DNA of 64,000 bases, from the NCBI GenBank assembly GCA_017311185.1, contig JAESUZ010001730.1, positions 124,001 through 188,000 on the forward strand. The letters run 5' to 3'. The translations under genes and the position numbers were made by a program. The notes below the pieces were generated by a model. That model made no database searches, had not been told where the DNA came from, and saw only the letters and a list, made by a program, of their open reading frames with translations. Source of the DNA: Proteles cristata cristata (Eukaryota; Chordata; Mammalia; Carnivora; Hyaenidae). Each line of letters begins with the position of its first letter. The stretch's first letter is position 1. This document shows positions 1,697-29,425 of this stretch, one piece after another.

Positions 1697-1698
1697 TA

Positions 1699-3380
1699 CG
1701 GGCACACCTCAGGGACCCCCGTGGGCCGGGCCGGACTCCTGCCATCCAGTGGCCCCCGGGGTCAGGCGAGCGGAAGGGCCGCGCGGGTTTCCGGGGAGTG
1801 GGAGGTGCGTGCGCATGCGCAGGGGGTGGGAGGTGCGCGCCCAGAGACTCGGCTGCTGAAACACGCGGCGCAGCGGCTGAGCTCCCAGCGAGTCCCGGCC
1901 CTGCGGCTGGCGGGGGTCCTGCCCGGGGGTGGCGGCTGCCGACCCGGTGGGGTGGGAGGGGGCGCCGAAGGCCGGGTGGCTGTGCGGCGTCTTAAAAGAA
2001 GGCAGCGGGACGTCGGCCACGCCACGCGGATCGGCTCCTCCCGCCACGAGCCGTTTCCCTGCGGCGGGCGGGGCCGTTGGTAGCACTTTCCCCGGAGGAG
2101 AACTTCTTCCAGAACCCGCGTGTCCTCTCAGGCCTGCCGCCGCTTCAGCGACCAGGCCGATGGAACGTTCCGGATCCTCGGTGAGCCGCTCAGGCGTCTT
2201 CACAGCGTCTCCGCCGGGAGGAGACGCCGTCTCAGGAACCCGCCCTCCTTGCCCCTCCTCGTCCGTCTGTCCGGGCTTCGTCCTGAGGTGCCGGCACCCG
2301 CGTCCCCTCGTCAGGCTCCACTTCCGGGCCGGGTCGTGCTGTTTCCGCCGCGTCCGGCCGCGGTGACCGCGTCCCCCGCGGCCCCGAGCCCTCCCGGCCG
2401 CCCAGGAGGGCCGGGGTCCCCTTCCTCCCGACTCCCGACTGTGTGCTCATTCCGGCCCCTCCCCGTGACCACGGGCGCCCTGGCGGCACCCAGGCCGGTG
2501 AGCCCTCGCCGGGGTTCTGTCGCCCTTGCCCAGACCCATCCGAGGAGCCACCGGGCGCGGCCGCCGTCGCCCGTGGAACGCACGCCGACCCCCCAGACCT
2601 GCCGGTCGGCAGGCGGCCTGGTCCGTGGGCCGCGGGAGGGTGCGGTGGCCGCAGGCGTGAACGGGCCTCGATCCCGCCCGCCTCCGGCCGCGCGCGTGCC
2701 TGTGACCCGGGGCGCTGGCCGCCAGCAGCCTGTGTGGAAAGGAGTCCCTTCCGCTGAGCCGTGGAACTCGGCAGCCGACCTGCACGCTTCGGGAGGCCGT
2801 GGTGTGGACAGGCGCGCGTACGGAGCGCGGGCAGGGCGGACTTCGCACGGGCCTCGGGGGCCCTCGATTTGCAGGACGGTCGCCGAGCACCGGCCTCCGC
2901 CCCAGGTCACCGGCCGCGGTGGCCCCTGCAGGGGAGGCAGCCGGGCCGTTGCAGCGTTGAGGCCAGGCCCGGACGTCTGCTCTCTGGCTGTGACGGTCCC
3001 GGCCCGCCCCTCCCACGGGAGGCTGCCGTGTCCACGCGGTGCGGGCCCGTCGTCGGCGCCCCCGCTGCACCTTCCGGAGAACTTGCCGCTTGGCCGGCAC
3101 CTCTGTGCTGTGGAGACGCCTCCTTTCCCCCGAGCCGAGCCGACCTCCGCCCGCTTCCGGCTTCCCCGCTGCAGCCCCCTCCCCCCTCCGCCTTCACGGA
3201 GAGGGAGAGCGTTGGGGCCCGGCTCTGGCGTCCGGGAACAAGTGGCCGGTGGTGTTTTCTGTCCCGACCCCTGCGATTTTCTCCGGACCATCAGGGGGCC
3301 CGCGCTGCCCTCCTCCATCCGTGTGGGCCCCGGAGGAGCGCTTTCCATTCCTTCGCCAGCGTCTCCTCTGCGTTCACAGC
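1699..3380. repeat. Inverted repeat arm A, CpG-island-like
   Basis: The reverse complement of this arm recurs at 27795-29425. Across about 2343-3133 I find one mismatch (3099 against 28081); three reading frames translate identically apart from it. Toward 3210-3380 about a dozen differences appear in 170 bp, and beyond 3380 similarity falls sharply. In 1699-2340 there are a few substitutions and two 30-bp length differences. Base composition is extreme (49 of 60 bases G or C in 2641-2700) with dense CpG. Confidence 0.95.
1810..1821 (+). promoter_or_regulatory. Perfect NRF1-type palindrome in arm A
   Basis: tgcgcatgcgca matches the NRF1 consensus (YGCGCAYGCGCR) exactly. It lies in a 30-bp segment absent from arm B. 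It is a motif match only; no transcript start is visible. Confidence 0.4.
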
Positions 3381-3661
3381 TTGGCTTATTTGGCAAAAGA
3401 GGTCTAGCTTTTTGGCCTACCCTGGCTTTTGACATGCCTTCCTTACTGACCTTAATCACTCATAGTTTTTGATATAAAGAGACGTGCGGCCCTTTCTTTC
3501 ACTTGAACACATGGAGGCCATTGCAGGGTTATTAGCTGGGTAATTTCAATATTGTTGTGTCTCAGGAAGTAGGGAGACCTGAGGAAAGGGAGGGAGGGGG
3601 GAATGGTTAGTTGGTGGAGTGGTCAGAACACGCGCAACATTTATTTATTAAGTTTGCCATT

Positions 3662-3869
3662 TAAAAAAATTTTTTAAACGTTTTTATTATTGAGAGACAG
3701 AGCATGAGCATGGGAGGGGCAGAGAGAGGGGGAGACACAGAATATGAAGGAGGCTCCAGGCTCTAAGGTGTCAGCACAGAGCCTGACGCGGGGCTCCAAC
3801 TCACAAACCATGAGATCATGACCTGAGCCGAAGTTGGACGCTCAATTGACTGAGCCACCCAAGCACCCC
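3662..3869 (-). mobile_element. Felid tRNA-SINE inside Tigger1 copy 1
   Basis: Complete felid-type SINE: T-rich start (the A tail on the minus strand), purine-rich body, and a head ending gagccacccaagcacccc. It interrupts the unconverted 5' shoulder of Tigger1 copy 1 and has no counterpart in copy 2. Confidence 0.9.
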
Positions 3870-4519
3870 TTAGTTCACCATCTTATATGGGTGTGATTTG
3901 CACATCCACAATTACAGAGTCACACCAAAGGTCACTGATACCCATAGCAGATATAATAGTAATGAAAACAAACATTTGAAATACTTTGGGAATTACCAAA
4001 ACGCAATGCAGAGACACGAAGTGAGCAAACACTATTGAAAAAATGGCGCCAGTAGACTTGCTGGATTCAGGGTTGCCGCAGACCTTCACTTTGTAGAAGA
4101 AAGAGAACGCAGTAACTGTGAAGTGTCACCAAGTGAAGCACAATGAAAGGAAGTAGTTTTATTGCCTATAGTGGCTCTTGGTATCCCTGAGTGAGCTTGC
4201 TACAGTGCTGGCCTTGACTGTGGTCCGTATTTAGCCAGAATACGTACAAAGGGAGCAATGGGAAGATCATTGGGTAATACGGGCAAGAAAAATATTAGGG
4301 GAGCGAGATAACCGAAATCTGTAAAATTGGAGGATTTATCTTAGAATTTATGATACTTGATTGCTGTTCAAATTTTGGATTGTGTAAGGGGCTTTCCATC
4401 CAACAAGAACTGTTGATGACAATAGTCAACATTTCATAATTTTAGTTTTGCAGTTATTTTCACTCATGAGCCCCTTTGCCCATTTAAGTAATTTTGCTGC
4501 AAATAGGGTAAAGAGCAGA

Positions 4520-5046
4520 GGTAGTCACGCTTCCGCACCATTGGAATGGAAACTGATACAGCCAGCATGGAACACAATATGGAGTTTCCTCAAAAACTGA
4601 AATACAGGCATACTGTGTGATTCCATCGTTCCACTACTGGGTATGTTCCCAAGGAAAACGAAAACATAAATTCAAAAAAATAAATGTACCCCTGCGTTTA
4701 ATGCTGCATTATTTACGATAGCAAAGGATGAGATCCTGGCATTAGAGGTGACATGGCTGGACTTCTAATGGTGAAATGAGTCAGACTGAGAAAGACAATT
4801 ACTGAAAGATTCTGCTAATAAGGGGAGAAGGAGACACAGCCTCCAGTTGTGGAATGAATAAGTCTTTGGAAGAAAAGGCCCAGCACAGGGAATACGGTTA
4901 ATGATACTGTATTAGCGACATAACAGGACAGATGGTAACTACTCTTGCGGTGAACACAGCATAATGTATAGATTTGTCAAATCACCGAGTCGTACACCAG
5001 AAACTAATGTAATCTTGTGTGTCAGCCATTCTAAAAAAAAAAAAAA
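4520..5046 (+). mobile_element. LINE-1 3' end fragment, old
   Basis: The sequence resembles the end of L1 ORF2 and the 3' UTR of older mammalian L1s: a block on 'ctactgggtatgttcccaagg', then a tail with cataatgtatagatttgtcaaatc, and an A tract at 5033-5046. It is 5' truncated with no open frame. Confidence 0.75.
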
Positions 5047-5104
5047 TTGCTCACTGTTACTAGCTAGATACATATCACCAAAGGCTCCCCTTAGATTCAG
5101 GTTT

Positions 5105-5290
5105 CTTCTTAAGGCACTGTGTCTTGGGCTCTTTGGGGCTGTCATAACCAAGTGCTGTGGACTGGGTGGCTTTACAAAAACAGAGATTTATATCTTGCAG
5201 TCTGGAGCCTGGAAGTCTGAGATCAGGCTACCAGCATGGTTGGATGAGACCCTCTCTTGATTTGCAGATTTCTTATTGTATACTCACGTG
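5105..5290 (-). mobile_element. Old MaLR-like interspersed repeat fragment
   Basis: Contains the common mammalian motif gactgggtggcttt...acagagatttat, seen in the antisense of an old LTR-like family. The same family in the other orientation seems to be at 60310-60840. The subfamily name is not certain. Confidence 0.5.
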
Positions 5291-5332
5291 GTAGAAGAAA
5301 TAATACTAAAACTCCTGAAAATCCATTATCCA

Positions 5333-5552
5333 AGGGCTCCTGGGTGGCTTAGTTGGTTAAGCATTCGACTTCGGCTCAGGTCATGATCTCACAGTTTTTG
5401 GGTTCAAGCCCCACGTCAGGCTCTGTGCTGACAGCTCAGAGCCTGGAGCCTGCTTTGGATTCTGTGTTTCCCCCTCTTGCCGCCCCTCCCCTGCTCAGGC
5501 TCTGTCTCCCTCTTGCTCAAAAATAAGTAAACATTTAAAAAAATTAAAAAAA
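5333..5552 (+). mobile_element. Felid tRNA-SINE
   Basis: A full SINE with a target-site duplication of aatccattatcca on both sides (about 5320-5332 and 5553-5565), showing a clean retroposition event. Confidence 0.92.
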
Positions 5553-5769
5553 AATCCATTATCCAGAGGTAATCACCATCAGTACTTTGACGTAACGTGT
5601 TTCTAGACTTTTTTCTAACCACATGACTATATATTTATAGCCTAAAAAAGTGCCGTCCATATCATTTATGCCATCTTCCTTTGGCAAATTTGCACCCATC
5701 TACAGCATAGCTCTGTCTGTGTAGTATTCCAGAATGATTGACTATATCATCATCTATGATAATAGCAAT

Positions 5770-5890
5770 TTATGGATCTCTTACTTGTTTTCAGTGGTGT
5801 TATATGATCTCAACTAATTCTCACACCAACTCTGTGAGGACAGGTATGATTTGGTGTCTTTACCTAACAAACAGAAAACTGAGGTGTTGG
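5770..5890 (-). mobile_element. MIR fragment
   Basis: The stretch atgatctcaactaattctca followed by ctctgtgaggacaggtat and gaaaactgaggt matches the core of the ancient MIR SINE, antisense. Confidence 0.6.
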
Positions 5891-6878
5891 GCTGTCGGCC
5901 TGATAGATGGCATGTCCATCAAGTGGAGAGGCTGGAGCGCCAAGAGTCTGCTTCTAACAAATGTGCTCTTTGTGCTTTCTATCTTTGGGCATTTCGGCAG
6001 CTTCCAGAAAGACACATGCCAATAATTATTGTGGTGTAACTATGACTTCTTAGATGAACATTGACATTTCATAGAACAAGGTTTTAAAGTCAAAGCAATA
6101 CAGTTTCATGTCTTTGCCGCTGACATTTAATAAACTCCGGTTACAATGTCGGCTAATTCTATTCTGGGTGAGATAGCCGTGGTAATTCTCTCCATTCCCC
6201 TCCTGTCCAGCCTTCCCAGGTTTGGGAAATCACGTGGTTCTGAGAAAGCTCTGGTCCCCAAAGGCCTCTGGCTGAGTGCTTCAGCTGCTGGCTGTGTTTC
6301 CTCCTCTCCAGGCTTAGCCTAGAGAGGAAGTGCCACCTAGGAGGCGAGGACACAGCACTTTTCCCCTCCAGACCCTCTTCTAGGACCTCGACCCCCCCCC
6401 CACAATGTTCCCGCAGGCCTAGAACTTATACATTGAAGGACATCGCCACGCGTGCCGCGTGAGACCCAGCCCACCTCTCTCTCCTTAGTCGGAAAGTGGA
6501 CATTCCCGCTTGCAGAAGAACACAGCAGCTCCCCTTGCAAAGGTTACTTCTAGCAACTGCTAGCTAGGTGTAACTTGAACCGTACAATACTTACGGAAGC
6601 AGAGTGAACTCACAAGCCGATAAAGCTGACCTCCCACATTGTTAGACTGTGATGCTCAAAGAGGTCGGCATTCTTTTCCACTTTGACTCAGATTCTCTCT
6701 GAGAAATGGCCAATTTAATCCTGATTTCCGAAGATGACGCTCTAACGGCACTCTCATTTAGGCTTCTCAGTGTGTTGTGTCAGCTGGTAGAAACCTAGGA
6801 AATGTACTCAGAAGGGGGACAGATCGATTCTAGTCCGCCCGAGGGGTCAGTATACACTTAAAAATTTCAGGTGTTCTT

Positions 6879-7096
6879 GGGGCGCCTAGGGGGCTCAGTT
6901 GGTTGGGCGCCCGACTTCGGCTCAGGTCATGATCTTGCGGTTCATGGGTTTGAGCCCCACGTCGGGCTCTGTGCTGACAGCTAGCTTGGAGCCTGGAGCC
7001 TGTTTCGGAGTCTGTGTCTCCCTCTCTCTCTGGACCTCCCCTGCTCACACTGTCTCTCTCTCCTAGAAATAAATAAAACAGTAAAAAAAAAAAAAA
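6879..7096 (+). mobile_element. Felid tRNA-SINE
   Basis: Head ggggcgcctagggggctcag, B-box-like ggtttgagccccacg, CT-rich region and a 15-base A tail. Confidence 0.92.
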
Positions 7097-7363
7097 GAAT
7101 ATGTTAAAGAGAATCAAATACAGAGTTCGACTTTAATGTCCACTGTTTCCTAGATTGGCCTGCTGGGGAGTATATCCAAGTTCATGGTGGCTCCTTTCCC
7201 ACTTGATGAAAGTGAGGTGGACTGGCCACCGGCCCTCAGCCTCACCAGGACACACTGTCCCCGGTGTGCACACATTGGATCACTGGGTTTGGGGAAAACT
7301 CCGTAAGCGATTTTGTGGAAACCTCATGAACCCTTAGAACTTTGTAGATTCTGTTTTTCCCTC

Positions 7364-7541
7364 CTTAGTTTACTTATTTTGAGAGAGAGAGTGTGAATGG
7401 GGAAGGGCCAGACAGAGAGAGAGAGAGAGAGAGAGAATCCCAATCAGGCTTCATGTGGGGAGTGATCATGAAACCGTGAGATCATGAGCTGAGCCGAAGC
7501 CAAGACGCTGAAGCTTAGCTGACAGTCACCCCAGTGCCCGT
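7364..7541 (-). mobile_element. Older carnivore tRNA-SINE, diverged
   Basis: A shorter SINE body (GA repeat, then aatcccaatcaggct and a gagatcatgagctgagccg head). Divergence is higher than in neighbouring copies. Confidence 0.8.
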
Positions 7542-7776
7542 GTAGATTCTTTTTTTCTTATACACGTTCATGTTGAGGCTGAAGCCTAGTGCTAGACGTG
7601 AGGTGTTTTGGCCTGAGTTGAGATATTCAGAAAAAATATAGAGAGGGACGATAAGAATGACAATTTTCATTTATTTCCCTTTTCCATCCCTGGACTGTCA
7701 TTAATACATATCAGTTCTGAGGGAGAGATTTATGGGAGCAAAGCAATGAGAGCGTTACTAAGAAATGATGTATACA

Positions 7777-7975
7777 GGGGTGCCTGGGTGGCTTAGTCGG
7801 TTAAGCGTCCGACTTTCGCTTAGGTCATGATCTCGCGGTTGGGTTCGAGCCCCGGTCGTGCTGACTGCCAGTTCAGAGCCTGGAGCCTGTTTCAGTCTGT
7901 GACTCCCTCTCTTTCTGACCCTCCCCTGTTCGCGCTGTCTCTCTCTCTTAGAAATAAATAAAACATTAAAAAAAA
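7777..7975 (+). mobile_element. Felid tRNA-SINE
   Basis: A complete copy flanked by duplicated aaatgatgtRtaca. It faces the next SINE (8000-8221) tail to tail with about 25 bp between them. Confidence 0.92.
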
Positions 7976-7999
7976 AAATGATGTGTACAAAAACCAGCT

Positions 8000-8221
8000 T
8001 TAAAAAAAAACTTTTTTTTTAACATTTGTTTATTTTTGAGAGACAGAGACAGAGCATGAGCAGAGGAGGGGTAGAGAGAGAGGGAGACACAGAATCCAAA
8101 GCAGGCTCCAGGCTCTGAGCTGTCAGCACAGAGCCCCATGCGGGGCTCGAACCCACAAACTGCAAGATCATGACCTGAGCTGAAGTCGGATGCTTAACTG
8201 ACTGGGCCCCCCAGGCGCCCC
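8000..8221 (-). mobile_element. Felid tRNA-SINE
   Basis: A full antisense copy ending ccaggcgcccc. It lies at the 3' truncation point of the large antisense L1. Confidence 0.92.
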
Positions 8222-8774
8222 TTTTTTGAGATTATTTTTGTGTATTCCAGTTTCATTCCTTTTGCATGTAGTTGTGTCCAGTTTTCCAAATACTGTTTAT
8301 TGGAAAGATGATTTTCTTCCCATTCCGTATTCTTTCCCTCCTTTGTTGAAGATTCATTTATTTCTGAGTTTTCTGTTCTTTTGATCTATGCATCTAATTT
8401 TGGGCCAGGATCATACTGTTTTGATTACTATAGCTTTGTAGTGTAACTTGTAATACCTCCAGCTTTGTTTTTCTTTTTCAAGATTGCGTTCACTATTCAG
8501 AGTCTTTTGTGGTTCCATACAGATTTTAGGATTGTCTGTCATAGTTCTGTGAAAAATGCCCTTGATATTTTGATAGGGATTGCATTAAATCTGTAGACTG
8601 CTTTGGGTGGTATGGACTTTTTAATAATATTCTTCCAATTCATGAGCATGGGATAGCTTTCCGTTTATGTTGTCTTCAGTTTTCTTCATCACTGTTTTAT
8701 AGTTTTCAGAGTACAGATCTTTCATCTCCATGGTTAAGTTCATTCCTAGGTATTTTATTCTTTTCGAAGCAATT

Positions 8775-8982
8775 ATAAATTTATTTATTTTTAAGTTTAC
8801 TTATTTTGAGATTTGAGAGAGATAGAGGAAAGGGGCCGAGTAGAGAGGGAGCGGGAGAGAGAAATAATCCTGCACTGTCTGCGCAGAGCCCAATGTAGGG
8901 CTCAGTGTCAGGACTGGTGAGATCAGGACCTGAATCAAAATTAAGAGTTGGACACTTAACCGACTGAGCCACCAAGATGCCC
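8775..8982 (-). mobile_element. Older carnivore tRNA-SINE nested in L1
   Basis: Antisense diverged copy with the body taatcctgcactgtctgcgc and a head ending gactgagccaccaagatgcc. It interrupts L1 ORF2. Confidence 0.82.
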
Positions 8983-9196
8983 TGGAATTGTTTTCTTAAT
9001 TCTCTTTCTGCTGCTTCATTATTAATGTATAGAAATGCAACAGATTTCTGTACATTGATTTTGTATCCTGTGGCCTTGCTGAATTCTAGTAGCTCTTTGG
9101 TGGTGGCTTGAGAGTATTTTCTATATATTGAATCATGTCATTAGCAAATAGCGAAAGTTTTACTTCTTCCTTCCAATTTGGATGCCTTTTTTTTCT

Positions 9197-9409
9197 TTCT
9201 TGTTTTAAGTTTATTTATTTATTTTGGGAGAGAGTGTGTGGGTGCACGTGCGTGCATGTGAGCAGGGGAGGGGCAGAGAGAGAACCCCAAGTAGGCTTGG
9301 TGCTAACAGTGTAGAGCCTGATGTGGAGCTTGATCTCATGAACCTTGAGATGATGATCTGAGTCAAAATCAAGAGTCGGGTATACTGACTGAGCCACCCA
9401 GATGCCCCC
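9197..9409 (-). mobile_element. tRNA-SINE nested in L1
   Basis: Antisense copy flanked by a 15-bp duplication of atttggatgcctttt (about 9175-9189 and 9411-9425). Confidence 0.88.
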
Positions 9410-9999
9410 CATTTGGATGCCTTTTATTCCTTTTTCTCGTCTAATAGCTGTGGCTGGGACTTCTAGTACTATGTGGAATAAAAGTGGTGAGAGTGGACAT
9501 CTTTGTCTTGTTCCTGACCTTAGGGGAAAGGCTTTTCACTTTTTCCCGCGGAGTATGATGTTAGCTGTGGGGTTTTCATATATGGCCTTTATTATGTTGA
9601 GGTTTGTTCTCTCTAAACCTACTTTGTTGAAGGTTTTCATCATGAATGGGTGTTGTACTTTGTTAAGTGCTTTTCCTGCATCTATCTAAATGATCACATG
9701 ATTTGTATCCCTTTCCTTTCTTATTGATGTGTTGTACTATGATGATTGATTTGCGAGTATTGAACCACCCTTGTGTCCTGGGAATAAATGATTATGGTGA
9801 ATAATTTTGGATTTGATTTGGTAATATTTTCTTGAAGATTTTTGCATCTCATTCATCGGAGGTATTGACTGGTCATTCCCTTTTTTCCTAGTGTCTTTAT
9901 CTGGTTTTGGCATCAGGGTAATGGTGGCTTCATAGAATGACTTTGGAAGTTTTTTTCGTCTTCAATTTTTGGAAATGTTTGAGAAGAATATGTATAAAC

Positions 10000-10220
10000 T
10001 CTTTTTTTTTTTTAAATATTTTTATTTATTTCTAGGAGAGAGAGAGACAGCGTGAGCAGGGGAGGGTCAGAGAGAGAGGAAGATACAGACTCTGAAATAG
10101 GCTCCAGGCTCCGAGCTGGCAGTCAGCACAGAGCCTGATGCGGGGCTTGAACCCACGAACTGCGAGATCATGACCTAAGCGAAAGTCGGACGCTTAACCG
10201 ACTAAGGCACCCAGGCGCCT
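10000..10220 (-). mobile_element. Felid tRNA-SINE nested in L1
   Basis: Antisense full copy of the ctaggagagag/cctaagcgaaagtcggacg subtype, flanked by similar tgtataaactctt and tgtataatctctt. Confidence 0.9.
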
Positions 10221-10518
10221 CTGTATAATCTCTTCTTTAAATGTGTGGTAGAATTCACCTGTGAAGCCATCTGGTCCTGGATTTTTGTTTGTTGGGAGTT
10301 TTTTTGATTTCTGATTCAATTTCATTGCTGGTAACTGATCTGTTCAAAATTTCTGTTTCTTCCTGATTCAGTTTTGGGAGGTCATATGTTTCCAGGAATT
10401 TACCCTTTTCTTCTAGGTTGCCCAGTTTGTTGGCATATAATTTTTTGTAATATTCTCTTAAATTCTTTTGTGGTTCTGAGGTGCTGGTTGTTATATCTCC
10501 TCCTTGTTTTTCTTTCTT

Positions 10519-10720
10519 TTTAAAAATTTTTAGAATTCATTTTTTTCTGGGGGGGACAAACTAGGGAGGAGCAGAGAGAGAGGAGGAGACACAGAATCTG
10601 ATGCAGGCTCCAGGCTCTGAGCTGTCAGCATACACCCTGATGCAGGGCTCAAACTCATGAGCTGTGAGATTATGACCTGAGCTGACATTGAATGCTCGAC
10701 CGATAGCCACCCAGGCCCCC
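10519..10720 (-). mobile_element. Felid tRNA-SINE nested in L1
   Basis: Antisense copy with a decayed head (cgatagccacccaggccccc) and a disturbed start. It lies within L1 ORF2. Confidence 0.85.
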
Positions 10721-11106
10721 TGTTCCTCTTTTATTTCTGATTTTGTTTGAGTTCTTTCTGTCTCTTTTTCTTTTTTTTCCCTTATGAGTCTTGCTAAAGG
10801 TTTATTAATGTTGTTTTCAAAGAACCAGTTCCTGATTTCATTGATCTCTTCTATATTTTTAAAATTTTTTAAAGTTTCTATTTCATTTATTTCTGATGTA
10901 ATCTTTATTTCCTTCATTCTATTGGTTTGGGGTTTTGTTTGTTCCTTTTCATGCTTTTTTAGGTGTAAGGGTGGGTTGTTTATTTGATATTTTTCTTCTG
11001 GAGGTAGGCCTGTTGATATAAACTTCCTCTTAGAACAGCTTTTGCTGCATCTCAAAGATTTTGGACTATTGTGTTTTCATGTTCATTTGTCTCCATGTAT
11101 TTTTTA

Positions 11107-11318
11107 ACCATTTTTTAATAGTTTTTATTTATTTTTGAGACAGAGACAGGGCATGAGTGGGGGAGGGCAGAGAGAGAAGGAGACACAGAATCTGACACAG
11201 GCTTCAGGCTCTGAGCTGCCAGCACAGAACCCAACGTGGGGCTCGAACCCACAAACTGAGAGGTCATGACCTGAGCTGAAGTTGGACACTTAACTGACTG
11301 AGCCACCCAGGCACCCCT
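11107..11318 (-). mobile_element. Felid tRNA-SINE nested in L1
   Basis: Antisense full copy flanked by a duplicated tcYtcatgtattttt-type target in L1 ORF2. Confidence 0.9.
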
Positions 11319-12144
11319 GTCTTCATGTATTTTTAAATTTCCTCTTTGATTTCTTGGTTAACTCATTTATTGTTTAGTTACTTAACCTCCATCTATTTGT
11401 GCTCTTTCCAGATTTTTTCCTGTGGTTGATTTCTAGTTACACAGCATTGTGGTCAGAAAGATGCCTGGCATGACTTCAGTCTTTCTGAATGTGTTGAGAT
11501 TTGTTTTGTGACCTAATATGTGGTTTGTTCTGGAGAATGTTCCATGCACACTTGAAAAGAATGTGTATTCTGCTGTTTTAGGATGGAATGTTCTGAATCT
11601 ATCTGTTAGATCCATCTGGTCCAATATGTCATTCAAAGCCAGTGTTTCCTTGTTGATTTTCCATTTGGATGATCTTTCCATGATGTAAGAGGAGTGTTAA
11701 AGTTCCCTACTATTATTGTGTTACTATCGATTATTTTCTTATGTTTGTTATTAACTGCTTATGTATTTGGTGTTTCATGTTGGGTGCATAAATATTTACA
11801 ATTGTTATATCTTCTTGTTGATTGATTATATAGTGTCCTTTGTTTCTTTTTTTGTTTTAAAGTCTATTTTGTCCTATACAAGTATTGCTACCCTGGCTAT
11901 CTTTTCACATCTCTTTGCGTGCTAAATGCTTCTCCATTGCCTCATTTTCTATCTTCATGTGTTTTTAGTTCTGATATGAGTCTTGTAGGCAGCATATAAA
12001 TAGGTCTTGGTTTTTTATCTATTCTGTCACCCTATGTCTTTTGATTGGAACATTTCATCCAAATACATTCAAAGTAGCTATTGATAGATATGTATTTATT
12101 GCTATTCTGTTACTTATTTTATTGTTTTTATAGTTCTCTGTTCC

Positions 12145-12162
12145 TTTTTTTTAAATGTTTGT

Positions 12163-12203
<41 letters not shown>

Positions 12204-12390
12204 AGAGAAAGAGAGAGACAGAATGTGAGCAGGGGAAGGGCAGAGAGAGAGGGAGACACAGAATCCAAAGCAGGCTCTAGGCTCTGAGCTGTCAGCACAG
12301 AGTCCAGTGTGGGACTTGAACTCATGAACTGTGAGATCATGACCTGAGCTGAAGTTGGATGCTCAACTGACTGAGCCACTCAGGTGCCCC
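12145..12390 (-). mobile_element. Felid tRNA-SINE nested in L1, expanded tail
   Basis: Antisense copy flanked by duplicated tctgttcctttctt-like target. Its A-rich tail has become a TTTA tetranucleotide microsatellite (12161-12200). Confidence 0.9.
12161..12200. repeat. TTTA microsatellite
   Basis: About ten uninterrupted TTTA units derived from the SINE tail. Confidence 0.9.
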
Positions 12391-18840: not shown

Positions 18841-19706
18841 GTGACCCTCACGTGAACTGGCGGTGGGTGGGCAGGAGGGCTCCGCACTGTGGGGGACGCC
18901 GGTGCCGTCATCTCCCTGCCCAGCAGGCCGCTCCCGCTGGCTCTTTAGTTTCACCAACCGAGTGGGGAGCGGTCCTTCTCCAGCCGATTTGCAAATAATA
19001 GAAGTACACACTGTGTTCTTTTAAAAAACTGTTTACAGTTCTTAAAAAAGCCTATTTCAGAAAATAGCATTTGGGTCAACTAATTTATGGTATAATAAAT
19101 AGAACCATCAGGTACGCCAGTATAATGAACAAATCTCAGTTATTCATCCCTAAGTGTTGTGTCAAGGCGTCTGAAATCTCTCATACGGTTACTTTGGAAG
19201 ACAAGTTGCCTCTCGGCGCGCTAATAATAGTAGCTGCCCTATTTCCCACCAGTGCATTTCAAGAGCTCCTGAAAACGGACCTCGGTCGCCAGTTGAAAAC
19301 CTCCTGTGGGCTTTTTTATTCTCAGCTCTGTCTTTCCGTCCGTGTATTTCAATTCTAATGTGCTAAGATAAGTTACTTTTAAAAGGGAAGCAAATGGCTT
19401 TACTTTGATAACATTTTTTTTGGTAGAGTTTTTAAAATAACTGTTTGTGCTCTAGCACCTTCTCAGCACCTAGCTTTGTCACGTGGCCTTCTCTGTGTCC
19501 TGTTCCCAGGGCTGCAGGCACCGGGGGAGGGCCCGCCCTCCTCTGGTGTGACCTCGCTTAACTTGATCATGTCTGCAAAGACCCTATTTCCAAATGAGGT
19601 CACGTGCACAGGGACTGGGCGGGGGAGACTTCAGCAGATCTTTGCGGGGGACACAGCTGAGCCCGTGCTGGCTGTTTAGAACTGGGATTAAGAGCACAGG
19701 AGTTGA
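18841..19706. other. Intergenic; one old repeat trace
   Basis: Nothing gene-like. The part at 19520-19680 (ctgcaaagaccctatttcca and nearby) resembles an old mammalian interspersed repeat of the same MaLR-like family as 5105-5290. The rest is unique-looking. Confidence 0.45.
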
Positions 19707-19929
19707 GGGGCGCCTGGGCGGCTCAGTCAGTTAAGCATCCGACTCTTGGTTTTGGCTCAGGTCAAGATCTCACGGTCTGTGAGTTCAAGCCCCACGTCGG
19801 GCTCTGCGCTGGCAGCATGGAGCCTGCTTGTGATTCTCCTGCTTCCTTTGTCTCCCTCTGCCCCTTCCCCACTCACACTATCTCTGTCTCTCTCCGAATA
19901 AATAAACAATCTTAAAAAAAAAAAAAAAA
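19707..19929 (+). mobile_element. Felid tRNA-SINE
   Basis: Full copy with head ggggcgcctgggcggctcag and an A tail at 19914-19929. Confidence 0.92.
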
Positions 19930-21649
19930 GAGCTTGGGCTTTGGAATTAGGCCTGTTATCAAGTCCCACAGCCCTTGAATTGGAAGCGGTACCAGCCCGG
20001 CCAGGTTATGGCTTCCATGCTGGTGCCGTCCACCTCGGATGTCGTGTGAGAGCGAGACAGACCACGTGCGCAGGCCCTCTCGAGCGCCTGGCAGGAAAGG
20101 CACTCGGTGGTCGGTGGCTTCTCCTCTCCCCGCCTTTCCTCTGCATTGTCCTTGTTTGTAGCTCTAGTAATTATTAATAGAAGGGGGCCAAAACGGGCCT
20201 CATCCAGAAGTGAGATCTTAGCAAGACCTGCAGGTTGTGAGGGAGGTGGCTGAGCGGGAATCGGGGGTGGGGCGGGAGGCTGGGGGTGTGGGGGGCGTGC
20301 GTTCCAGGGAGAGAAAAACCATAACGTGCAAGGATGACGTTCTCCTTTCAAAATGTTCTCGCCGCACACTGGAATGTGAGCTCCTGAGGCCAGAGGTCTG
20401 CCGTGTTCACGGACGTGACCCTGACCCTCAAACGGTGCCTGGCTGGCAGTGGGTGCTTTGTGCGCAGCTAAATAGTTGCTACAGAAATTAATACCGAAGC
20501 CTAATTGATCAGGACTGAGCAACCCTTCTCTTTGATGTGGCTCTGAAGAGTAACAGGGACCGTGGGGGCCGCCCAGGTTTGCTCGCCCCAGCCTGGTTTG
20601 CTGGAAACCTCCCCCCAAGGACCACCCACCTGTCCCCTCCCACCTGACGCTTATAATTAGGAATTAGCCCAGGGCCCGTTCCTCAAACAGCACTTTTTTT
20701 TTGGTGGTGGGGGAAGGTGTTTCTGGAAATGGTTTCAGCTGTCAAAAAGAATACATGGGGCAAAGAAAGATGGTACCTGGGAATTCTCACAATATCATGG
20801 AATGACTGCTTCTGGATTTGAAGAGGCTCAGGAGTGAATTGATCGAACCCTCCGTTCCTTCTGTGCAAGCGTGAGGGGCTGGCTTGGTGCTCGCGTTTCT
20901 GGTGTGTTCCGCTCCCCGCTCCAGAAGCCGGCCTCGTTTTTCTCTCTGAGCAGGTGTTGTCTTATTCCTCCATTGTGCTCCCAAGAGAAGGGAGCTTGTC
21001 CCGTGTGCTCTGCCAGGCCTCTGGTGTCCCGGCTAACAAGGGCAGCCCTCTCCGATGGCCACCCGGGCACCGTGGGGGTCTGCGGGCCTCCGTGTCTGCT
21101 CCTCTGAGAAGGCAGTGCCCTTTGTGTTAGGAAGCGAGCAGGGCTCACGCTCTTTAGGGACCTGCCCCCAGCGTCCTCTTCCGGGCTCCCTGGGTAGGAA
21201 CCCAAGGGTTCAGGCAGAGAAGAAGGCTGCCTCCGAATCCATAGATGGTACCCCGTGCTCTGTGGAGTCTCTCTACCTTTATCAGGTAGCCTGGCAATGT
21301 AGGGAACAGCTTCCCGCGGTGGAAGCATGTCCCCCGCCCCGAGATCCTACTGGATGTGCTGGCCTTTCCCAGCCACTCGTCCCAGCCAACGTTGGACACA
21401 CATCCCTGAAGCACCTCTCCGGTCCAGAGGCGCACCGGCGTGGGGGGGAGAGGAGCAGGGACTCGGGGACATCACCTGCCGCTAGCATGCGCGAGCCCTT
21501 TAGCGTTCGGGGAGCCCACTGACGCGTAACCGTGTGTTGTGTGCATGTCTCGGTCTCGGTAACTGCACAAGGACCAGCCAAGCCAAGAAGGTGAAGGATT
21601 TTACAACCATTTTCTGGTGCGCACGGCATTACTGAGAAGCATATCTTCT
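19930..21649. other. Intergenic, nothing recognised
   Basis: Moderately GC-rich. Several open frames up to 219 codons (20618-19959 minus) lack domains or splice context and overlap each other on both strands, so I do not call genes. Confidence 0.45.
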
Positions 21650-21826
21650 TTAAAAAAAAATTTTTTTTAATGTTTACTTGAGAGAGAGAAATAGAGAGAG
21701 GGAGACACAACTCAAGGCAGGCCCTGAGCTGTCAGCACAGAGCCCGATGTGGGGCTTGAACTCACGAACCGTGAGATCATGACCTGAGCCGAGGTCTGAT
21801 CCTCAACTGAGCCACCCAGGGGCCCC
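21650..21826 (-). mobile_element. tRNA-SINE, internally shortened
   Basis: Antisense copy with gagaagcat(a/c)tctt at both flanks. Part of the body is deleted. Confidence 0.87.
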
Positions 21827-24800
21827 TGAGAAGCATCTCTTCGGACCTGAGATGCGGGGGGGCGGGGAGAGGGAGGCTTAAGCACCGTCCGCTGTCCAGG
21901 AAGGAGGCAGGGTGGAACAGGCCCGCAGAAACAGCCTGTGTTGTCAGAGGAGGGAAGCGTCCATCCGCGGGCTGCGGAGAGTCCTGGGGAAGTCCAGGTG
22001 GAGGCCATGAAGGTAGCATTCGACTTGGCCCTTGAGAGAGCAGTTGAGTATCTGCAGGTGAGAAGCGCGGTGAGGACCAGCTCAAGGCCGGTGGGCAGGT
22101 GTGGGAGGACGGGGAGCCTGCAGGTGGGAGGCTCAGCGTGAGGGGAGGGCTTCGGGGTCCCGGTCCCCACTGCCGGGGCCTGTGATTCTTTCTGAGCAGT
22201 GAAATGAACGGATGAGATTTTTGGTTTAAAAACGCGGCTTAAAGGCTGTGACGTTGGAAGGGTCAGCTTTTCGGGCTTCTCAATCCGAATGCATCCGGAG
22301 GCCGTCAGAAACGCGGCCTCTTGAGGAGGTCTTTTCAAGGGGAGGGGTGGAGAGGAGGAGGGGTCAACAGCCCCGGGAAGATTCAGAGGCTGCGGAAGAC
22401 GGTGAGTCCCACCGGAGGCGCCTGCGGCAGGGGAGGGCTTGGCGGAGGTGTTGGCTGGACAGGAGCTGGGGGGCTGGGCTGTGGGTAGACGTTAGGGTTC
22501 CCTGAGTGTGACCTGCTCCCCTTCCCCTGCGCCAGGCAGTGGGGAGGACTTGCGGCCAGATGGGAGGTGACCCCACGGCTGGGGTGCCTTGCGGGCCAGG
22601 AAGTGTCTTCAAAGGTTTGCAAGGGGGCCCTCGGGCGTGCACGTGCCACGAGGCGGGTGGGGGGGGGGAACCCCCACCCTCTCCAGATCTTGGCCCGCCA
22701 GGAAGCGGCCAGGCCTCATGGGCAGCAGTTTGAGGTTCGCACTTGGTCTTTGCAGCTGAGGTTGTGGCCGTGGCCGTAAGCAGCCCGGGGCTTGGCTTTG
22801 GGCCAGTGCGTATTTCTCCCAGGTGAGAACGTGCGGGAGGGAGAGTTCTGCACCTAGAGGAGGGTCAGAAGCTTCTCTCCTGTGGGCTGTGTCGGTGGCC
22901 GGAATGGGTGAGGCAAATGGCCTGTGGCAAATGAGCGCCCGTGGCCCCTGGCAGTGTTCACCTGCGTTCTCTGATTCGTTGCAATGGTGGGTGGTGGTCG
23001 CTCTCTCATCTGCTGGAGCAGCAGGAGGGGGCGAGATGCTCCTGACCTTGGCGAGTTGGGGCAGGTGGGAGACTAAGCCTGCGTCCCCTACTTCTGGGCA
23101 GTAGGCTCCTGTTAGGCTCTGGTCCCCAGGGAGACCAGGTGATTGTGATGCAGGCCTTCCAGAGAGGGGAATGCACAGTTGAAGTCAGAGCAGCGTTTTC
23201 TCGTCTTCAGATTCTGACCTGCAAGTTCCTTGGAGGTGGAGGTCAAGCAGCACAAGCACAGAGGGTTCTAGAGGGAACTAGTATCTGGCTTTTTGCCGAT
23301 CTCCCCGCAGGAAGGATCCTCAGTACCTTTGAGAGCCAAGTGGTAATTTCATGCCCTTGTGTAGGCTGGCATCTGAAGGTAAATTTTGGGTAGTGTGGGA
23401 AGTCCAAGAAAGAAACTGGGGCTATATCCACAATGTGAGGGAACTTTAGGGGTTTCCTTTGAATGTGTTTGAAGCATGCTCTTTATGTAGCCTTACAACT
23501 CTGTCAGTTTCACAGGGAATTTTAGGTGAAAAACCCATTTTGGAACCTGTTCTAGATTTCTTAAAAGAAAATAACAGTGAAACTTCCCTTCCATGTATTT
23601 CCCTGCGGTTGGAGTTTTCTCCTGAAAATGCTATTATGCAAAACAAAATTCTCTTTTTGGGGAAAGTGCCTTGGAAGTAAACGCTATGAAATAAATCTAC
23701 CTGTGGATTATTTTGGTCATCCCCTTTCCCAGAAAGGCTGCCTGCTCAGGTTTTTCTCTCCCCCAAACACAGATGGATTCAGTTAGGAAGTAACAAGGGT
23801 AACTGACACCCAAAGATCGTTGATTGTTCGGGGCAGTTTCTAACCTCCTCACTTGCTGACACCTTGGGCTGGACCTCGTGTGCCAGGGGCTTGTGCGCAG
23901 CGTCTGTGCCCTCTGCCCACCCGGGCGGGGCCAGCGGCACATCCCCATCCTGACAAGCAAAAGGGTCTCCACTTTGCCAAATGTGTCTCCCCCTCCCCCC
24001 CCGGTGGTCCCAAATCTCTCCTGGCTGAGAACCAGCTGGTTTAAGAGGATTGTCTGCTCACGCAAATGTTTCTCTAGGAAAATACAAGAAATGTTAGCAG
24101 TTCACTAAATCTGTTCAGTTTTCCTTAGAGATTAGAATATGAAGTGGGACGGATGCCTCCCCCACTTCGGGAGCAGAGGTGGGGTTTGTGATACACTCTT
24201 GCTTTCACATTCATCACGCATCAGTTGTTCCCAAGCCTCTGGGGGCTGCGGGCTCCTTGTTGGTGCGAGGGTGTTGGGGCCTCCATGGGTACTGGTGGCG
24301 CAGTGAGCCTGCCACACGAAGGGGAGCCTGGCGGGGACGGGATGCTGTGAATGCGTGGGGCGCGCCCAGCAAGGGTTCCGAGGTGGATTTTCTCTGGGCG
24401 TCTAGGCTTTTCCCCTAGAATCCCGCCTTCATCAGGATTCTTCAAGTGCCCCTTTCCTTTATTTCTAGAAGGGCACCGAGAGGCACACTTCCTAGAATCC
24501 AGTCTTTATTACTTGGCGGAGACAAAATGCTTAGGTAACAGCCCTGCGTCTGAGAAGTGGTCGCCCCACACACGCCGGCGCCTGGCGAGGGCAGGTGCAC
24601 TAACTGCGGCCAGGCGTTTGCCCACCCCACCCCAGCCCTGCCTTGCTGGAGGGCCGGAGGCCTGCTGGTCTGAGCGTGCCTCGTGGGAAGAGAGAAGGGG
24701 AGCACGTTTCTTTGTAAATGGCCCTGCGCTGTTTTCTGAATGGGAATGCACACGGAAAATTCCATATGCAGTGTAGTCTGAGCAGCCTCGTGGGTGCGTC

Positions 24801-24930
24801 ACAAACCCGGGCCGACTGAAAGCAGATGTTTTGAGTGTTAAGACTGTGGTTCTACCAGCTTCGTGACTGTTTTCCTTTCTCCCGAATATTTCCATTGACC
24901 TAAGTCACAACCCCAATTGTTGCTATGGGG
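21827..24930. other. Intergenic, partly GC-rich, nothing recognised
   Basis: Around 22040-22780 the plus strand is G-rich. No recognisable protein domain, RNA gene or repeat was found by eye. Open frames here are short and overlap on both strands. Confidence 0.4.
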
Positions 24931-24931
24931 A

Positions 24932-25012
24932 AGCACATATATTAATATATGTATACATTGTATAGTATATATAATATGTACACATTATATATATTATATA
25001 ATGTATATATGT
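24932..25012. repeat. AT-rich, self-complementary tract
   Basis: Alternating TA/TG/CA sequence (atatattaatatatgtatac and similar) that can form cruciform or hairpin structures. Confidence 0.8.
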
Positions 25013-25157
25013 TCTCACAGTTGGCCTAACTGGGAACTGAAAAGTGACAACAGAAGAAAATCTGTGGGTCGATTTTTGATCGAATATAGTCTGTTTAAAA
25101 ATGGAGAGATATTTTGTGAGTCATTAAGGTTTCTTTTTCTTTTTTAAAGAATTTTTT

Positions 25158-25360
25158 AATTTAAAAATGCTTTAGTTTTTTGAGAAAGTGTGTGTGTGGG
25201 GGGGAGGGGCAGAGAGCGAGGGAGACACAGAATCTGAAGTGGGCTCCAGGCTCTGAGCTGTCAGCAGAGGCCAGTGGGGGAGGGCTCGAATCCACAGACC
25301 ACGGGGTCATGACCTGAGCTTTGGTCAGATACTTAACTGACTGAGCCACCCAGGTGCCCC
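25158..25360 (-). mobile_element. tRNA-SINE, diverged
   Basis: Antisense copy ending tgagccacccaggtgcccc, with a G-rich interruption in the body. Confidence 0.87.
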
Positions 25361-25385
25361 AAGATTTCATTTTATTATTTATTAT

Positions 25386-25579
25386 TTTTTAATTTTTTTT
25401 TAAATTTATTTTTGAGAGCGCACAAGCAGGGAAGGGGCAGAGAGAGGGGGACAGAGGATCTGAAGTGGGCTCTGCACTGATAGCACAGAGCCCGACGCGG
25501 GGCTTAAACTCATGAACTCTGAGATCGTGACCTGAGCTGATGTCGGATGCTCATCTGACTGAGCCACCCAGGCGCCCCA
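25386..25579 (-). mobile_element. tRNA-SINE, diverged
   Basis: Antisense copy directly following the previous one. Both end in caagatttt-like sequence. Confidence 0.87.
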
Positions 25580-25582
25580 AGA

Positions 25583-25672
25583 TTTTAATCTGCACCCCCA
25601 ACGTGGGGCTCGAACTCAACCCCAAGATCAAGAGTCACATGTTCCTCTGATCAATTGAGCCGGGCTCCCCAG
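25583..25672 (-). mobile_element. Short carnivore tRNA-SINE
   Basis: Antisense head-only copy (acgtggggctcgaactcaac followed by gagccgggctccccagg). It is the third SINE of a tandem cluster. Confidence 0.8.
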
Positions 25673-26242
25673 GTTTTTTTCTTCTCTGATGATGGAAAAA
25701 GGGATATGAGAATTCATGTTCTCCTTCACTTGGCGAGGAACATCTAAGTGGGAAACTTCATGAAGATTTTTAATTAACATATGCTGAAACACATGGTATT
25801 TTAAAGGACTTCTGGAACAAAGTGGTTGATAGTAAGATTTATTTTAATCTTTCAATCTGCCAAAAAAAAAAAACCACCCCGAAAACAGAAAAGATCAAAC
25901 TATACTCCTATATATACAGTGCGGACATTTTCAGAGCACTTACATTAGGAATCATGGTTTCCCTTCAACCACGTGATGTACTGCATGTGTCAGGACAGAA
26001 CTGACACGGACAATTGCGCGGCAACCACACAGACGTGAGTCCACGTTCAGTACACAAGACCTCTTCCTGGTGCTCTGTGTGCCCCTGACCGCCGCCGGAC
26101 CCCCGCCTCCCAGAGCACCCTCTCACACGTGCTGTTAGAACCTTCGGCCTTTCCCTTCCAACAGCGGCTATTTTAGAAGCCCCAGGCTTTCCAGATCCAA
26201 ATCTAAGGGAGACGCTGGCCATTTAAAAATAACTGCCGGTGG
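25673..26242. other. Downstream flank of PRKAG2
   Basis: Nothing recognised. This is sequence beyond the inferred PRKAG2 polyadenylation site. Confidence 0.4.
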
Positions 26243-26248
26243 TTTATT
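26243..26248 (-). terminator. Polyadenylation signal AATAAA, PRKAG2
   Basis: A canonical hexamer on the minus strand about 700 bp after the PRKAG2 stop codon. It is the first perfect AATAAA on that strand that I see downstream of the stop. Confidence 0.55.
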
Positions 26249-26285
26249 AACGGGCAGGGGGAGGCTTAGCCACCAAGATGTGTAA

Positions 26286-26316
<31 letters not shown>

Positions 26317-26946
26317 AAAAAAAAACTGCATGAGAATAAAAATAAATAAAGCTGTCGTCAAGCGGTTTTGTTTACACTGTAGTTGGGAACAGACACTTGA
26401 ACAGAAAACTGCCGTTAAAAGTTTTATAAAGTAATTATTTATATCCAAATCATAGCGGTTTGACAAATCTAAGGAAAACAGAACTGATTTGGTGAAGGTC
26501 CAGAGACTGTCGCGCCCCAGCACCGTGTAGCTCCAGCTGTCCTGGGCCGCAGTGATGACAGATCACATGTCCTGACATAAGGCACTAGGTCTGAGAGGCC
26601 CTGCACTCGCCTTATGTCTGATTCCCTGTTCCAGAGTGGTGAGTTCTTTGAAATGAAAAATAAAAACTTCAGGACACAGTGCACTTTAATAACATACAGC
26701 GTTTGAAATTGCTCAGACGAGGGTCTGAGAGCAGTCTTTTAATGCAAGCCCGAATCTTCACACACACAAAATCGGTTTCTTATGCTCCGTTTTCAACACC
26801 ACTGGAAAAAAAAATACCCATCACTAAACCCTGATATACGTCCTCAGCCATCTGACGGTCTCGGTCACGGTCTGTGTGCATGAGGCAAAGCGTGATCCGG
26901 AATCTTTGCTCAAGTTCTCCCACGAGGGCTTCTCCGCTCAGAGCGG
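26243..26946 (-). other. PRKAG2: PRKAG2 3' UTR (inferred end)
   Basis: This is the sequence after the PRKAG2 stop on the minus strand. The best polyadenylation signal is an AATAAA at 26248-26243, predicting cleavage near 26220-26235. Internally the mRNA strand has an AU-rich stretch (26332-26352, overlapping AUUUA-type pentamers) and two long U tracts interrupted by single G residues (26283-26325). The end is inferred from the signal only; longer or shorter isoforms cannot be excluded. Confidence 0.6.
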
Positions 26947-26978
26947 TCATTCTGTTTCTGTCTCCTTTTGTTTGGCAC
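26947..26978 (-). CDS. PRKAG2: PRKAG2 exon 16, coding end (residues 560-569, stop)
   Basis: The final coding piece completes glycine 560 and encodes AKQKETETE, then TGA at 26947-26949. The acceptor is cccgacag. This acidic tail is diagnostic of gamma-2. Exon 16 is separated from exon 15 by a 5.2 kb intron, of which 27339-29425 is a GC-rich Tigger1 element. Confidence 0.97.
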
Positions 26979-27338
26979 CTGTCGGGAGATGGAAAACAAA
27001 AGCTTCAGACCACGTAAAACACGCTGCAGCGGGCCAGCCTGCCCCCAGCAGCGGCGGCCCCACCCCGGGGTGGTTCTCACCCGTGCCTGGCCGTGCCTGG
27101 CCCTGCCTCAGGAGAACGTTCCAGACCCTAGAGGCGGGGGAGGAGCAGGTGGCTCCAAGCTCCTCACCACCTCCCTCCCCCCGCCCCCCAAAACAGCAGC
27201 TCACTTCTAGTCCGTGTTCGGCGGCCCAAGTGTTAAATATGCAAGATTTAATTTGGAAAAGAAGAGGGTTCTGGTGCGGACGTTTGTAGAAGAAAGCGCA
27301 CAGTGTGTCTGCGTGAAGGTGCGGGCGTTGGTGTCCCA

Positions 27339-29425
27339 CAGCCGGACCTGGCTCACTGCACTGTGTGGACGACCTGGTTCTTACAGACTGAGGGGCTGTG
27401 GCCACCTGCATCCGGCACGTCTACTGGGACCATTTTCCAAACAGCATTTGTTCTGCGTGCCTGTCCCGTTTTGGAAATTCTCCCCGTGTTTCAAACCTTT
27501 TCACGATGATACCTGTTACGGTGAGCGGGGACCTGTCACTATTGTAATTGTTGGCTGGCGCCCTGAGCCACGCCCATGCGGTGTGTTCCCACCACTCCGC
27601 TGGCCCGTCCCCCACCTCTCCCTCTCCTCGGGCCTCCCTAGTCCCTGAGATGCAACAATACTGAGATGAAGCCAAGGGAACAACCCTGCTGTGGCCCCGA
27701 GGTGTTCGGGTGAAAGGAAGAGTCGCCCATCTTTCAGTTTGTATCCGCCCAGTGACGTCCAAAGCTGGGCCTCTTTCACCCAACAGCCATCCCCGCTGTG
27801 AACGCCGAGGAGACGCTGGTGAAGGAACGGAAAGCGCTTCTCCGGGGCCCACACGGATGGACGAGGGCAGCGCGGGCCCCCTGCTGGTCCGGAGAAAGTC
27901 GCAGGGGTCGGCACAGAAGACACCACCGGCCACTCGTTCCCGGACGCCAGAGCCGGGGCCCAACGCTCTCCCTCTCCGTGAAGGCGGAGGGGGGAGGGGG
28001 CTGCAGCGGGGAAGCCGGAAGCGGGCGGAGGTCGGCTCGGCTCGGCTCGGGGGAAAGGAGGCGTCTCCACAGCACAGAGGCGCCGGCCAAGCGGCAAGTT
28101 CTCCGGAAGGTGCAGCGGGGGCGCCGACGACGGGCCCGCACCGCGTGGACACGGCAGCCTCCCGTGGGAGGGGCGGGCCGGGACCGTCACAGCCAGAGAG
28201 CAGACGTCCGGGCCTGGCCTCAACGCTGCAACGGCCCGGCTGCCTCCCCTGCAGGGGCCACCGCGGCCGGTGACCTGGGGCGGAGGCCGGTGCTCGGCGA
28301 CCGTCCTGCAAATCGAGGGCCCCCGAGGCCCGTGCGAAGTCCGCCCTGCCCGCGCTCCGTACGCGCGCCTGTCCACACCACGGCCTCCCGAAGCGTGCAG
28401 GTCGGCTGCCGAGTTCCACGGCTCAGCGGAAGGGACTCCTTTCCACACAGGCTGCTGGCGGCCAGCGCCCCGGGTCACAGGCACGCGCGCGGCCGGAGGC
28501 GGGCGGGATCGAGGCCCGTTCACGCCTGCGGCCACCGCACCCTCCCGCGGCCCACGGACCAGGCCGCCTGCCGACCGGCAGGTCTGGGGGGTCGGCGTGC
28601 GTTCCACGGGCGACGGCGGCCGCGCCCGGTGGCTCCTCGGATGGGTCTGGGCAAGGGCGACAGAACCCCGGCGAGGGCTCACCGGCCTGGGTGCCGCCAG
28701 GGCGCCCGTGGTCACGGGGAGGGGCCGGAATGAGCACACAGTCGGGAGTCGGGAGGAAGGGGACCCCGGCCCTCCTGGGCGGCCGGGAGGGCTCGGGGCC
28801 GCGGGGGACGCGGTCACCGCGGCCGGACGCGGCGGAAACAGCACGAGACCCGGCCCGGAAGTGGAGCCTGACGAGGGGACGCGGGTGCCGGCACCTCAGG
28901 ACGAAGCCCGGACAGACGGACGAGGAGGGGCAAGGAGGGCGGGTTCCTGAGACGGCGTCTCCTCCCGGCGGAGACGCTGTGAAGACGCCTGAGCGGCTCA
29001 CCGAGGATCCGGAACGTTCCATCGGCCTGGTCGCCGAAGCGGCGGCAGGCCTGAGAGGACACGCGGGTTCTGGAAGAAGTTCTCCTCCGGGGAAAGTGCT
29101 ACCAACGGCCCCGCCCGCCGCAGGGAAACGGCTCGTGGCGGGAGGAGCCGATCCGCGTGGCGTGGCCGACGTCCCGCTGCCTTCTTTTAAGACGCCGCAC
29201 AGCCACCCGGCCTTCGGCGCCCCCTCCCACCCCACCCGGTCGGCAGCCGCCACCCCCGGGCAGGACCCCCGCCAGCCGCAGGGCCGCGTGTTTCAGCAGC
29301 CGAGTCTCTGGGCGCGCACCTCCCACGCCCCGGAAACCCGCGCGGCCCTTCCGCTCGCCTGACCCCGAGGGCCACTGGATCGCCAGGGTCCGGCCCTGGC
29401 CCACGGGATCCCTGAGGTGTGCCCG
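27339..29425 (+). mobile_element. Tigger1-type DNA transposon, copy 2 (in PRKAG2 last intron, antisense)
   Basis: A second Tigger1, plus strand, between PRKAG2 exons 16 and 15. The 5' terminal repeat is blurred at about 27339, and the 3' end at 29425 matches the terminal repeat (ctgaggtgtgcccg). Transposase similarity survives in patches: a TDEE motif near 28918, SPPGGDAVK near 28963, AAAGL near 29038, LPSFKTP near 29178 and a proline-rich tail to about 29285. An APGH segment near 28470 matches the DDE catalytic region, but the preceding aspartate position is alanine, so it is not an active enzyme. The whole element, including the 5' shoulder, is GC-rich. Two 30-bp segments present in copy 1 are missing here. 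Confidence 0.85.
27795..29425. repeat. Inverted repeat arm B, CpG-island-like
   Basis: Partner of 1699-3380 in opposite orientation, with 24.4 kb of spacer. Small differences from arm A include one extra 5-bp unit of a gagcc repeat (near 28036), a 2-bp insertion near 28852 and two 30-bp deletions near 29290 and 29325. The arm lies inside the last PRKAG2 intron. By composition it would be called a CpG island, but it is made of transposon sequence. Confidence 0.95.

Follow-up and report, generated by a model that had tools for sequence, protein, structure and literature searches.

What makes two stretches of DNA that lie 24 kb apart, in opposite orientation, almost identical to each other and exceptionally rich in G and C, when no homology can be detected between their flanks? 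The question is raised by 64,000 nucleotides from the hyaenid carnivore Proteles cristata cristata (assembly GCA_017311185.1, contig JAESUZ010001730.1, positions 124,001 to 188,000; this whole stretch is hereafter the window). Both arms of the repeat belong to full-length copies, A and B, of Tigger1, a pogo-like Tc1/mariner DNA transposon, and two further Tigger1 copies, C (locus L008) and D (locus L009), lie on two other contigs. The best reading, to which we give a probability of about 0.84, is that dispersed, dead Tigger1 transposons have been exchanging sequence for a long time by GC-biased non-allelic gene conversion. All searches were performed on the window's own assembly (a single assembly of 2.39 Gb in 5412 contigs), and all substitution counts were polarised against an uncurated Tigger1 consensus of 2418 bases. 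We consider this consensus credible because it encodes one 593-residue frame with the Pfam domains DDE_1, CENP-B_N and HTH_Tnp_Tc5, and because it matches five other Tigger1 copies of the same genome with 79-90% identity over the parts measured. These five copies (L010, L011, L019, L020 and L043) served as ordinary controls.

Copy A occupies positions 1699..4168, with the transposase sense on the minus strand, in the intergenic region between RHEB and PRKAG2. Its GC-rich arm, delimited by the arm alignment and the multiple alignment, spans 1699..3380 and is followed by an unconverted AT-rich 5' shoulder (3381..4168, minus strand) with about 80% identity to the consensus. The shoulder is interrupted on the minus strand by a carnivore short interspersed element (SINE), presumably a SINEC, at 3659..3871 (edges approximate), which B does not have. 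Copy B (27322..29425, plus strand) consists of a diverged 5' shoulder at 27322..27794 (58% GC) and an arm, delimited in the same way, at 27795..29425. BLAST aligned A to the consensus over 201-2412 (E 2e-140, then 5e-47 beyond the SINE) and B over 253-2363 (E 2e-106). For the outermost 200-250 bases of the consensus, both copies could be aligned only in the multiple alignment, at about 50% identity, and they end on the terminal repeat. Letters aligned to Tigger1 run throughout both GC-rich arms, with many replacements of A/T by G/C. Aligning the arms to Tigger1 was one check that the initial annotation had called for, and the GC-rich core of A (1896..3143) did align significantly: it scored 189 against a maximum of 18 for shuffled sequences, and the reversed and reverse-complemented consensus gave scores like those of the shuffles.

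The initial annotation had also placed the outer ends of the arms on a Tigger 3' terminal repeat, taken their inner neighbours for diverged 5' shoulders and pointed to the peptides SPPGGDAVK, AAAGL and LPSFKTP as transposase traces, all of which was borne out. On the outside, both arms finish with the 3' terminus of Tigger1, and each is adjoined on its inner side by a 5' part of Tigger1; these 5' parts share 67% identity between A and B. The outer ends of A and B read CGGGCACACCTC, similar to the Tigger1 terminal repeats, which we take to be like CAGGCATACCTC; the terminal-repeat-like ends of C and D read GAGGGGTACCTC and CAGGCCTGCCTC, and the 5' ends are more decayed. A is flanked by TA (1697-1698 and 4169-4170, if 7 inserted bases close to the 5' end are allowed for), C and D have TA on their 3' side and TG on their 5' side, and B is bounded by TG at 27320-27321 and 29426-29427, that is CA in the orientation of the element, which we read as a decayed TA. 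A single reading frame on the minus strand of arm A (1709-2446) contains all three peptides, beside which the consensus frame has TPGEDAVN and AAAGF. A and B have 35 frame-breaking indels each, which leaves the transposase wrecked, and, as expected for such copies, six-frame translations of the arms had no Pfam match; four other open reading frames of the window had no Pfam match either. The three codon positions have changed about equally (152 of 413, 160 of 416 and 163 of 413), so there is no sign of protein constraint. On these grounds we rejected exaptation of the transposase; the long frames that stay open in the arms are probably a by-product of the scarcity of A/T-rich stop codons.

As initially annotated, the arms are GC-rich reverse complements of each other some 24.4 kb apart (the spacer measures 24,414 bases). 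Two inverted blocks, of 440 nucleotides (1896-2335/28847-29286) and 810 nucleotides (2334-3143/28037-28846), are 100% identical, and they are bordered by blocks of 96% (3130-3380/27795-28045) and 88% identity (1698-1815/29309-29426). Over consensus 251-1610, A and B differ by 3 substitutions in 1257 aligned sites; over the whole homogenised part (consensus 1-1850) they differ by 28 substitutions in 1627 columns with a base in both, plus several indels. Core A is 74.9% GC, and the arm cores together have 75% GC and a CpG observed/expected ratio of 0.93, compared with 48.7% and 0.55 for the window and 46% and 0.43 for the interval between the two elements. CpG island thresholds (GC above 0.6 and observed/expected above 0.65 in 500-base windows) are passed at 1501-3500 and 27501-29700.

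The direction of base change differs sharply between arms and shoulders. In core A, 428 of 727 A/T sites (W) have become G/C (S) and only 14 of 515 G/C sites have become A/T; in shoulder A the corresponding figures are 46 of 306 and 52 of 239. The equilibrium GC content is 0.956 (0.933-0.978) for the core, 0.409 (0.331-0.503) for shoulder A and 0.690 (0.606-0.774) for shoulder B. In all four copies the ratio of W>S to S>W rates is higher in the converted than in the unconverted blocks (15.2/0.7 in A, 20.4/2.6 in B, 12.3/0.8 in C and 6.7/1.9 in D), and in arm A W>W changes are not raised (0.012 vs 0.016 in its shoulder). The scaled coefficient of GC bias is about 3-5 when measured against shoulder A and 1.5-2.7 against shoulder B. 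GC drift is absent from four of the five ordinary copies (L011, L019, L020 and L043). The excess of A/T to G/C changes is thus tied to the sequence that is exchanged, and GC-biased gene conversion is expected to leave just such a pattern (PMC8981503).

A genome search with core A returned 7 matches (all 6 candidates scored), of which those of at least 85% identity fell on A, B and two other contigs and the remaining two were ordinary copies at 72% and 68%. C (L008:3642-5704, minus strand) is GC-rich, shares the core with A and B and has unrelated flanks; D (L009:3994-5340, minus strand) is also GC-rich with unrelated flanks and shares part of the core. Searching with C (14 matches, all 8 candidates scored) recovered the same four loci, together with four ordinary places whose matches were short or weak (one reached 86% across some 50 bases). 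With D, 45 matches were obtained among the 40 of 303 candidates scored; 8 lie in the four loci and 37 come from other copies at 73-80%, 36 of them in the 5' part. Long matches of at least 85% to core A and C were therefore confined to A-D, and four members is a lower bound because common words were skipped and candidates capped in the searches. The initial annotation was accordingly right that A and B are homogenised and too narrow in limiting this to a pair: since at least two further Tigger1 copies elsewhere carry all or part of the core, the inverted-pair geometry is not required. C and D also share with each other a 5' block that neither A nor B carries, and their 3' ends are near the consensus.

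The four copies are mosaics. Over consensus 381-1493 (1034-1036 columns), A and B differ by 1 substitution, A and C by 4 and B and C by 3. Before position 861, most of the core is either missing from D or not shared (53% identity to A in 601-860); in bins from 861 to 1848, D is 80-98% identical to A and carries changes of its own. In 1741-2200, C is 94-100% identical to D and 64-94% identical to A. At sites where C sides with only one of A and D, it sides with A 43:1 in 861-1500 and with D 95:9 in 1741-2200 (Fisher P = 4e-27 for the switch of topology, with block limits chosen after viewing the alignment). A single tree cannot give both the grouping of C with A in the core and that of C with D in the 5' block, so that paralogous sites are mosaic within unrelated flanks, as in non-allelic gene conversion.

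The alternative that survives best, although we consider it unlikely, is that one copy became GC-rich for another reason, such as an allelic recombination hotspot or a selected CpG island, and that its core was pasted into the others by a few conversions. The CpG observed/expected ratio of 0.93 agrees with this, as does the near-identity of the A, B and C cores, from which it follows that the latest exchanges were recent. The core of D, with its own changes, speaks on the contrary for an older exchange; the 5' block of C and D, absent from A and B, is GC-biased too (in 1849-2200, W>S 53/165 and S>W 13/132 in C, 59/164 and 14/130 in D); and the identity of A and B declines at either end of the homogenised stretch, to 84% in the outermost 70 bases of the consensus and 94% along the inner margin (1611-1850).

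Less probable still is an inverted segmental duplication, in which a segment bearing Tigger1 was duplicated to a site 24 kb away, after which its flanks diverged. The arms are indeed nearly identical and inverted, as such an event would leave them. However, flanks of 570 and 1500 bases on both sides of A and B had no detectable homology (47-200 of 200 shuffles reached their scores), although the shoulders (577 and 474 bp), comparable in length and age, still match with a score of 91.5 against a shuffle maximum of 21. In addition, the homology of A and B stops at the 3' terminus, and C and D have other flanks. For A and B this refutes a duplication, unless it ended exactly at both transposon ends. 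Among A-D, 10 of 12 flank comparisons remained below the maximum of 60 shuffles; the other two (B-D and C-D) were slightly above it, and we did not take them for homology because the positions are not colinear. The opposite orientation of two full-length Tigger1 elements in unrelated flanks shows that A and B are independent insertions, and the flank test and the diverged shoulders thus support the initial view of two insertions that were later homogenised. The shared changes of the A and B shoulders were also considered as proof of common origin and rejected, because their excess (31 shared derived states vs 15.5 expected) is just somewhat above that between ordinary copies: these share derived states with A, C, D or each other in the same region at 0.9-1.7 times a simpler expectation.

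That a GC-rich Tigger1 subfamily transposed and yielded copies born GC-rich, as the derived core states common to all four copies might suggest, is scarcely credible given the near-consensus 3' ends of C and D, the differently diverged shoulders of A and B, the block boundaries that vary between copies, the four of five other copies without GC drift and the wrecked transposase.

Under long-running biased conversion, at least four Tigger1 elements would have inserted independently at separate sites of one chromosome region (the equivalent of human 7q36.1), and their transposase genes would have died. Breaks in one copy would then have been repaired from another copy elsewhere, the copies repeatedly templating each other in overlapping patches, with repair of heteroduplex mismatches favouring G/C. 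Exchanged patches (consensus 1-1850) may in this way have drifted from 41% to about 67-75% GC and become CpG-island-like, while patches that did not exchange would have stayed nearer to the ordinary state and those losing identity through indels or the SINE would have dropped out. The core would have been exchanged recently among A, B and C and the 5' block between C and D. We infer that the exchange was meiotic gene conversion driven towards GC by biased repair, over megabase distances; as to its age, the few differences among A, B and C point to exchange during about the past million years, provided that a usual mammalian rate applies. The odds are about even that these copies form a self-reinforcing network, in which independent dead transposons scattered over megabases of one chromosome, both within introns and outside genes, act as mutual recombination partners, have new CpG islands built from their AT-rich DNA by biased repair and have been exchanging until recently.

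Several points weigh against this explanation. S>S changes are also higher in arm A (0.056 vs 0.017 in the shoulder in one alignment, 27/515 in core A vs 8/239 in the shoulder in another), perhaps as a result of double hits. A GC shift, due to regional GC content or older exchange, is also present in the unconverted shoulder of B (2.6) and at the ends of D (1.9), and the excess of shared states in the A and B shoulders possibly reflects some older exchange or an error of the consensus. One ordinary copy (L010:1781-3300) is mildly GC-shifted (W>S 107/455, S>W 15/330). We considered it as a fifth member and rejected it, as it lies in a GC-rich neighbourhood and has little excess of derived states shared with A, C and D (48 vs 36.3). 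There may nevertheless be more members of the set. The Tigger1 consensus is not a curated one, the assembly is a single one without read support, and the chromosome placement and the linkage of the three contigs are deduced from presumed human gene positions. Finally, exchange over megabases exceeds the range within which Alu gene conversion mainly takes place, about 10 kb in the excerpted text of PMC8230782.

The genes around the four copies are the basis of this placement. RHEB exons and PRKAG2 were found on the window's contig, along with exons that we take to be NUB1-like and gamma-N-crystallin-like. A PRKAG2 exon other than the last one matches gamma chains of AMPK, which PDB names gamma-1; its assignment to gamma-2 is presumed. 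C lies about 7 kb from exons of AOC1 (diamine oxidase, E 4e-48) and D within the final intron of EZH2. RHEB, PRKAG2, AOC1 and EZH2 presumably all lie within about 3 Mb in human 7q36.1, which places A-D, by gene content and human synteny, in what is probably one chromosome region. The last coding exon piece of PRKAG2 (26950..26985, minus strand) was assigned with the PRKAG2 protein through a 12-residue match that is weak alone; the next matched exon is at 32140-32250. The interval between A and B thus encloses the last coding exon of PRKAG2, with B in the last intron, and a crossover between the two copies would invert this exon away from its gene. Runs of N, possibly gaps, stand beside an EZH2 exon (L009:3062-3349) and, on contig C1653, beside the last RHEB exon found (69141-69391) and within the CpG island that lies upstream of RHEB (111473-111556). 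C1653 also holds, outside the window, another inverted pair (24218-25227 and 220948-221963, loci L025 and L039; 1018 bp, 94%, about 196 kb apart). Open frames at 54558-58166 of the window (plus strand), including a reverse-transcriptase-like one at 57432-58166, appear LINE-1-like.

These Tigger1 copies amount to a natural experiment with internal controls, since each has more and less exchanged parts and an ancestor of known kind; the controls and the known direction of change make the strength of GC-biased conversion measurable over a long time. They outline a route by which a transposon can become CpG-island-like, with no sign that selection on a protein was involved, and suggest that non-allelic conversion between small dispersed elements can persist, perhaps over megabases. 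The FLNA/EMD inverted repeats of the mammalian X chromosome, ascribed to Caceres et al. 2007, are reportedly old repeats that invert recurrently and are kept alike by gene conversion; they are said to be one pair that arose by duplication, unlike the Tigger1 set with its transposon insertions. Among the open-access papers listed in literature searches, none describes homogenised Tigger1 copies by its title and start of abstract; subscription papers fall mostly outside that literature, so absence from print is not shown. PMC11170920 counts biased conversion among the possible origins of orphan CpG islands. Dispersed transposable elements are known to undergo non-allelic gene conversion, as neighbouring Alu and long terminal repeat (LTR) elements do (PMC6598467, PMC8230782), and the term DNA transposon has 0 occurrences in the main text of these two papers. 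Compared with the cases in their excerpts, the present elements are ancient DNA transposons that exchanged repeatedly, over 24 kb and between contigs, with extreme GC enrichment. Arm-to-arm conversion in the Y palindrome P6 is reported to be likewise GC-biased, with rare inversions, in a palindrome that differs in being large and sex-linked (Hallast et al. 2013, PMC3723533). A further parallel is with X-chromosome palindromes (Jackson et al. 2021, PMC8981503, which also cites Caceres et al. for an X palindrome whose arms are GC-rich in 16 species): they too have near-identical inverted arms, arm-to-arm gene conversion and a GC content above that of the flanks, with a median of 46.3% in human arms vs 41.2% in flanks and an equilibrium GC of 60.9%. 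Unlike the palindromes in that excerpted account, the Tigger1 core reaches 75% GC with an equilibrium of about 0.96, and it is shared by separate transposon insertions at more than two sites.

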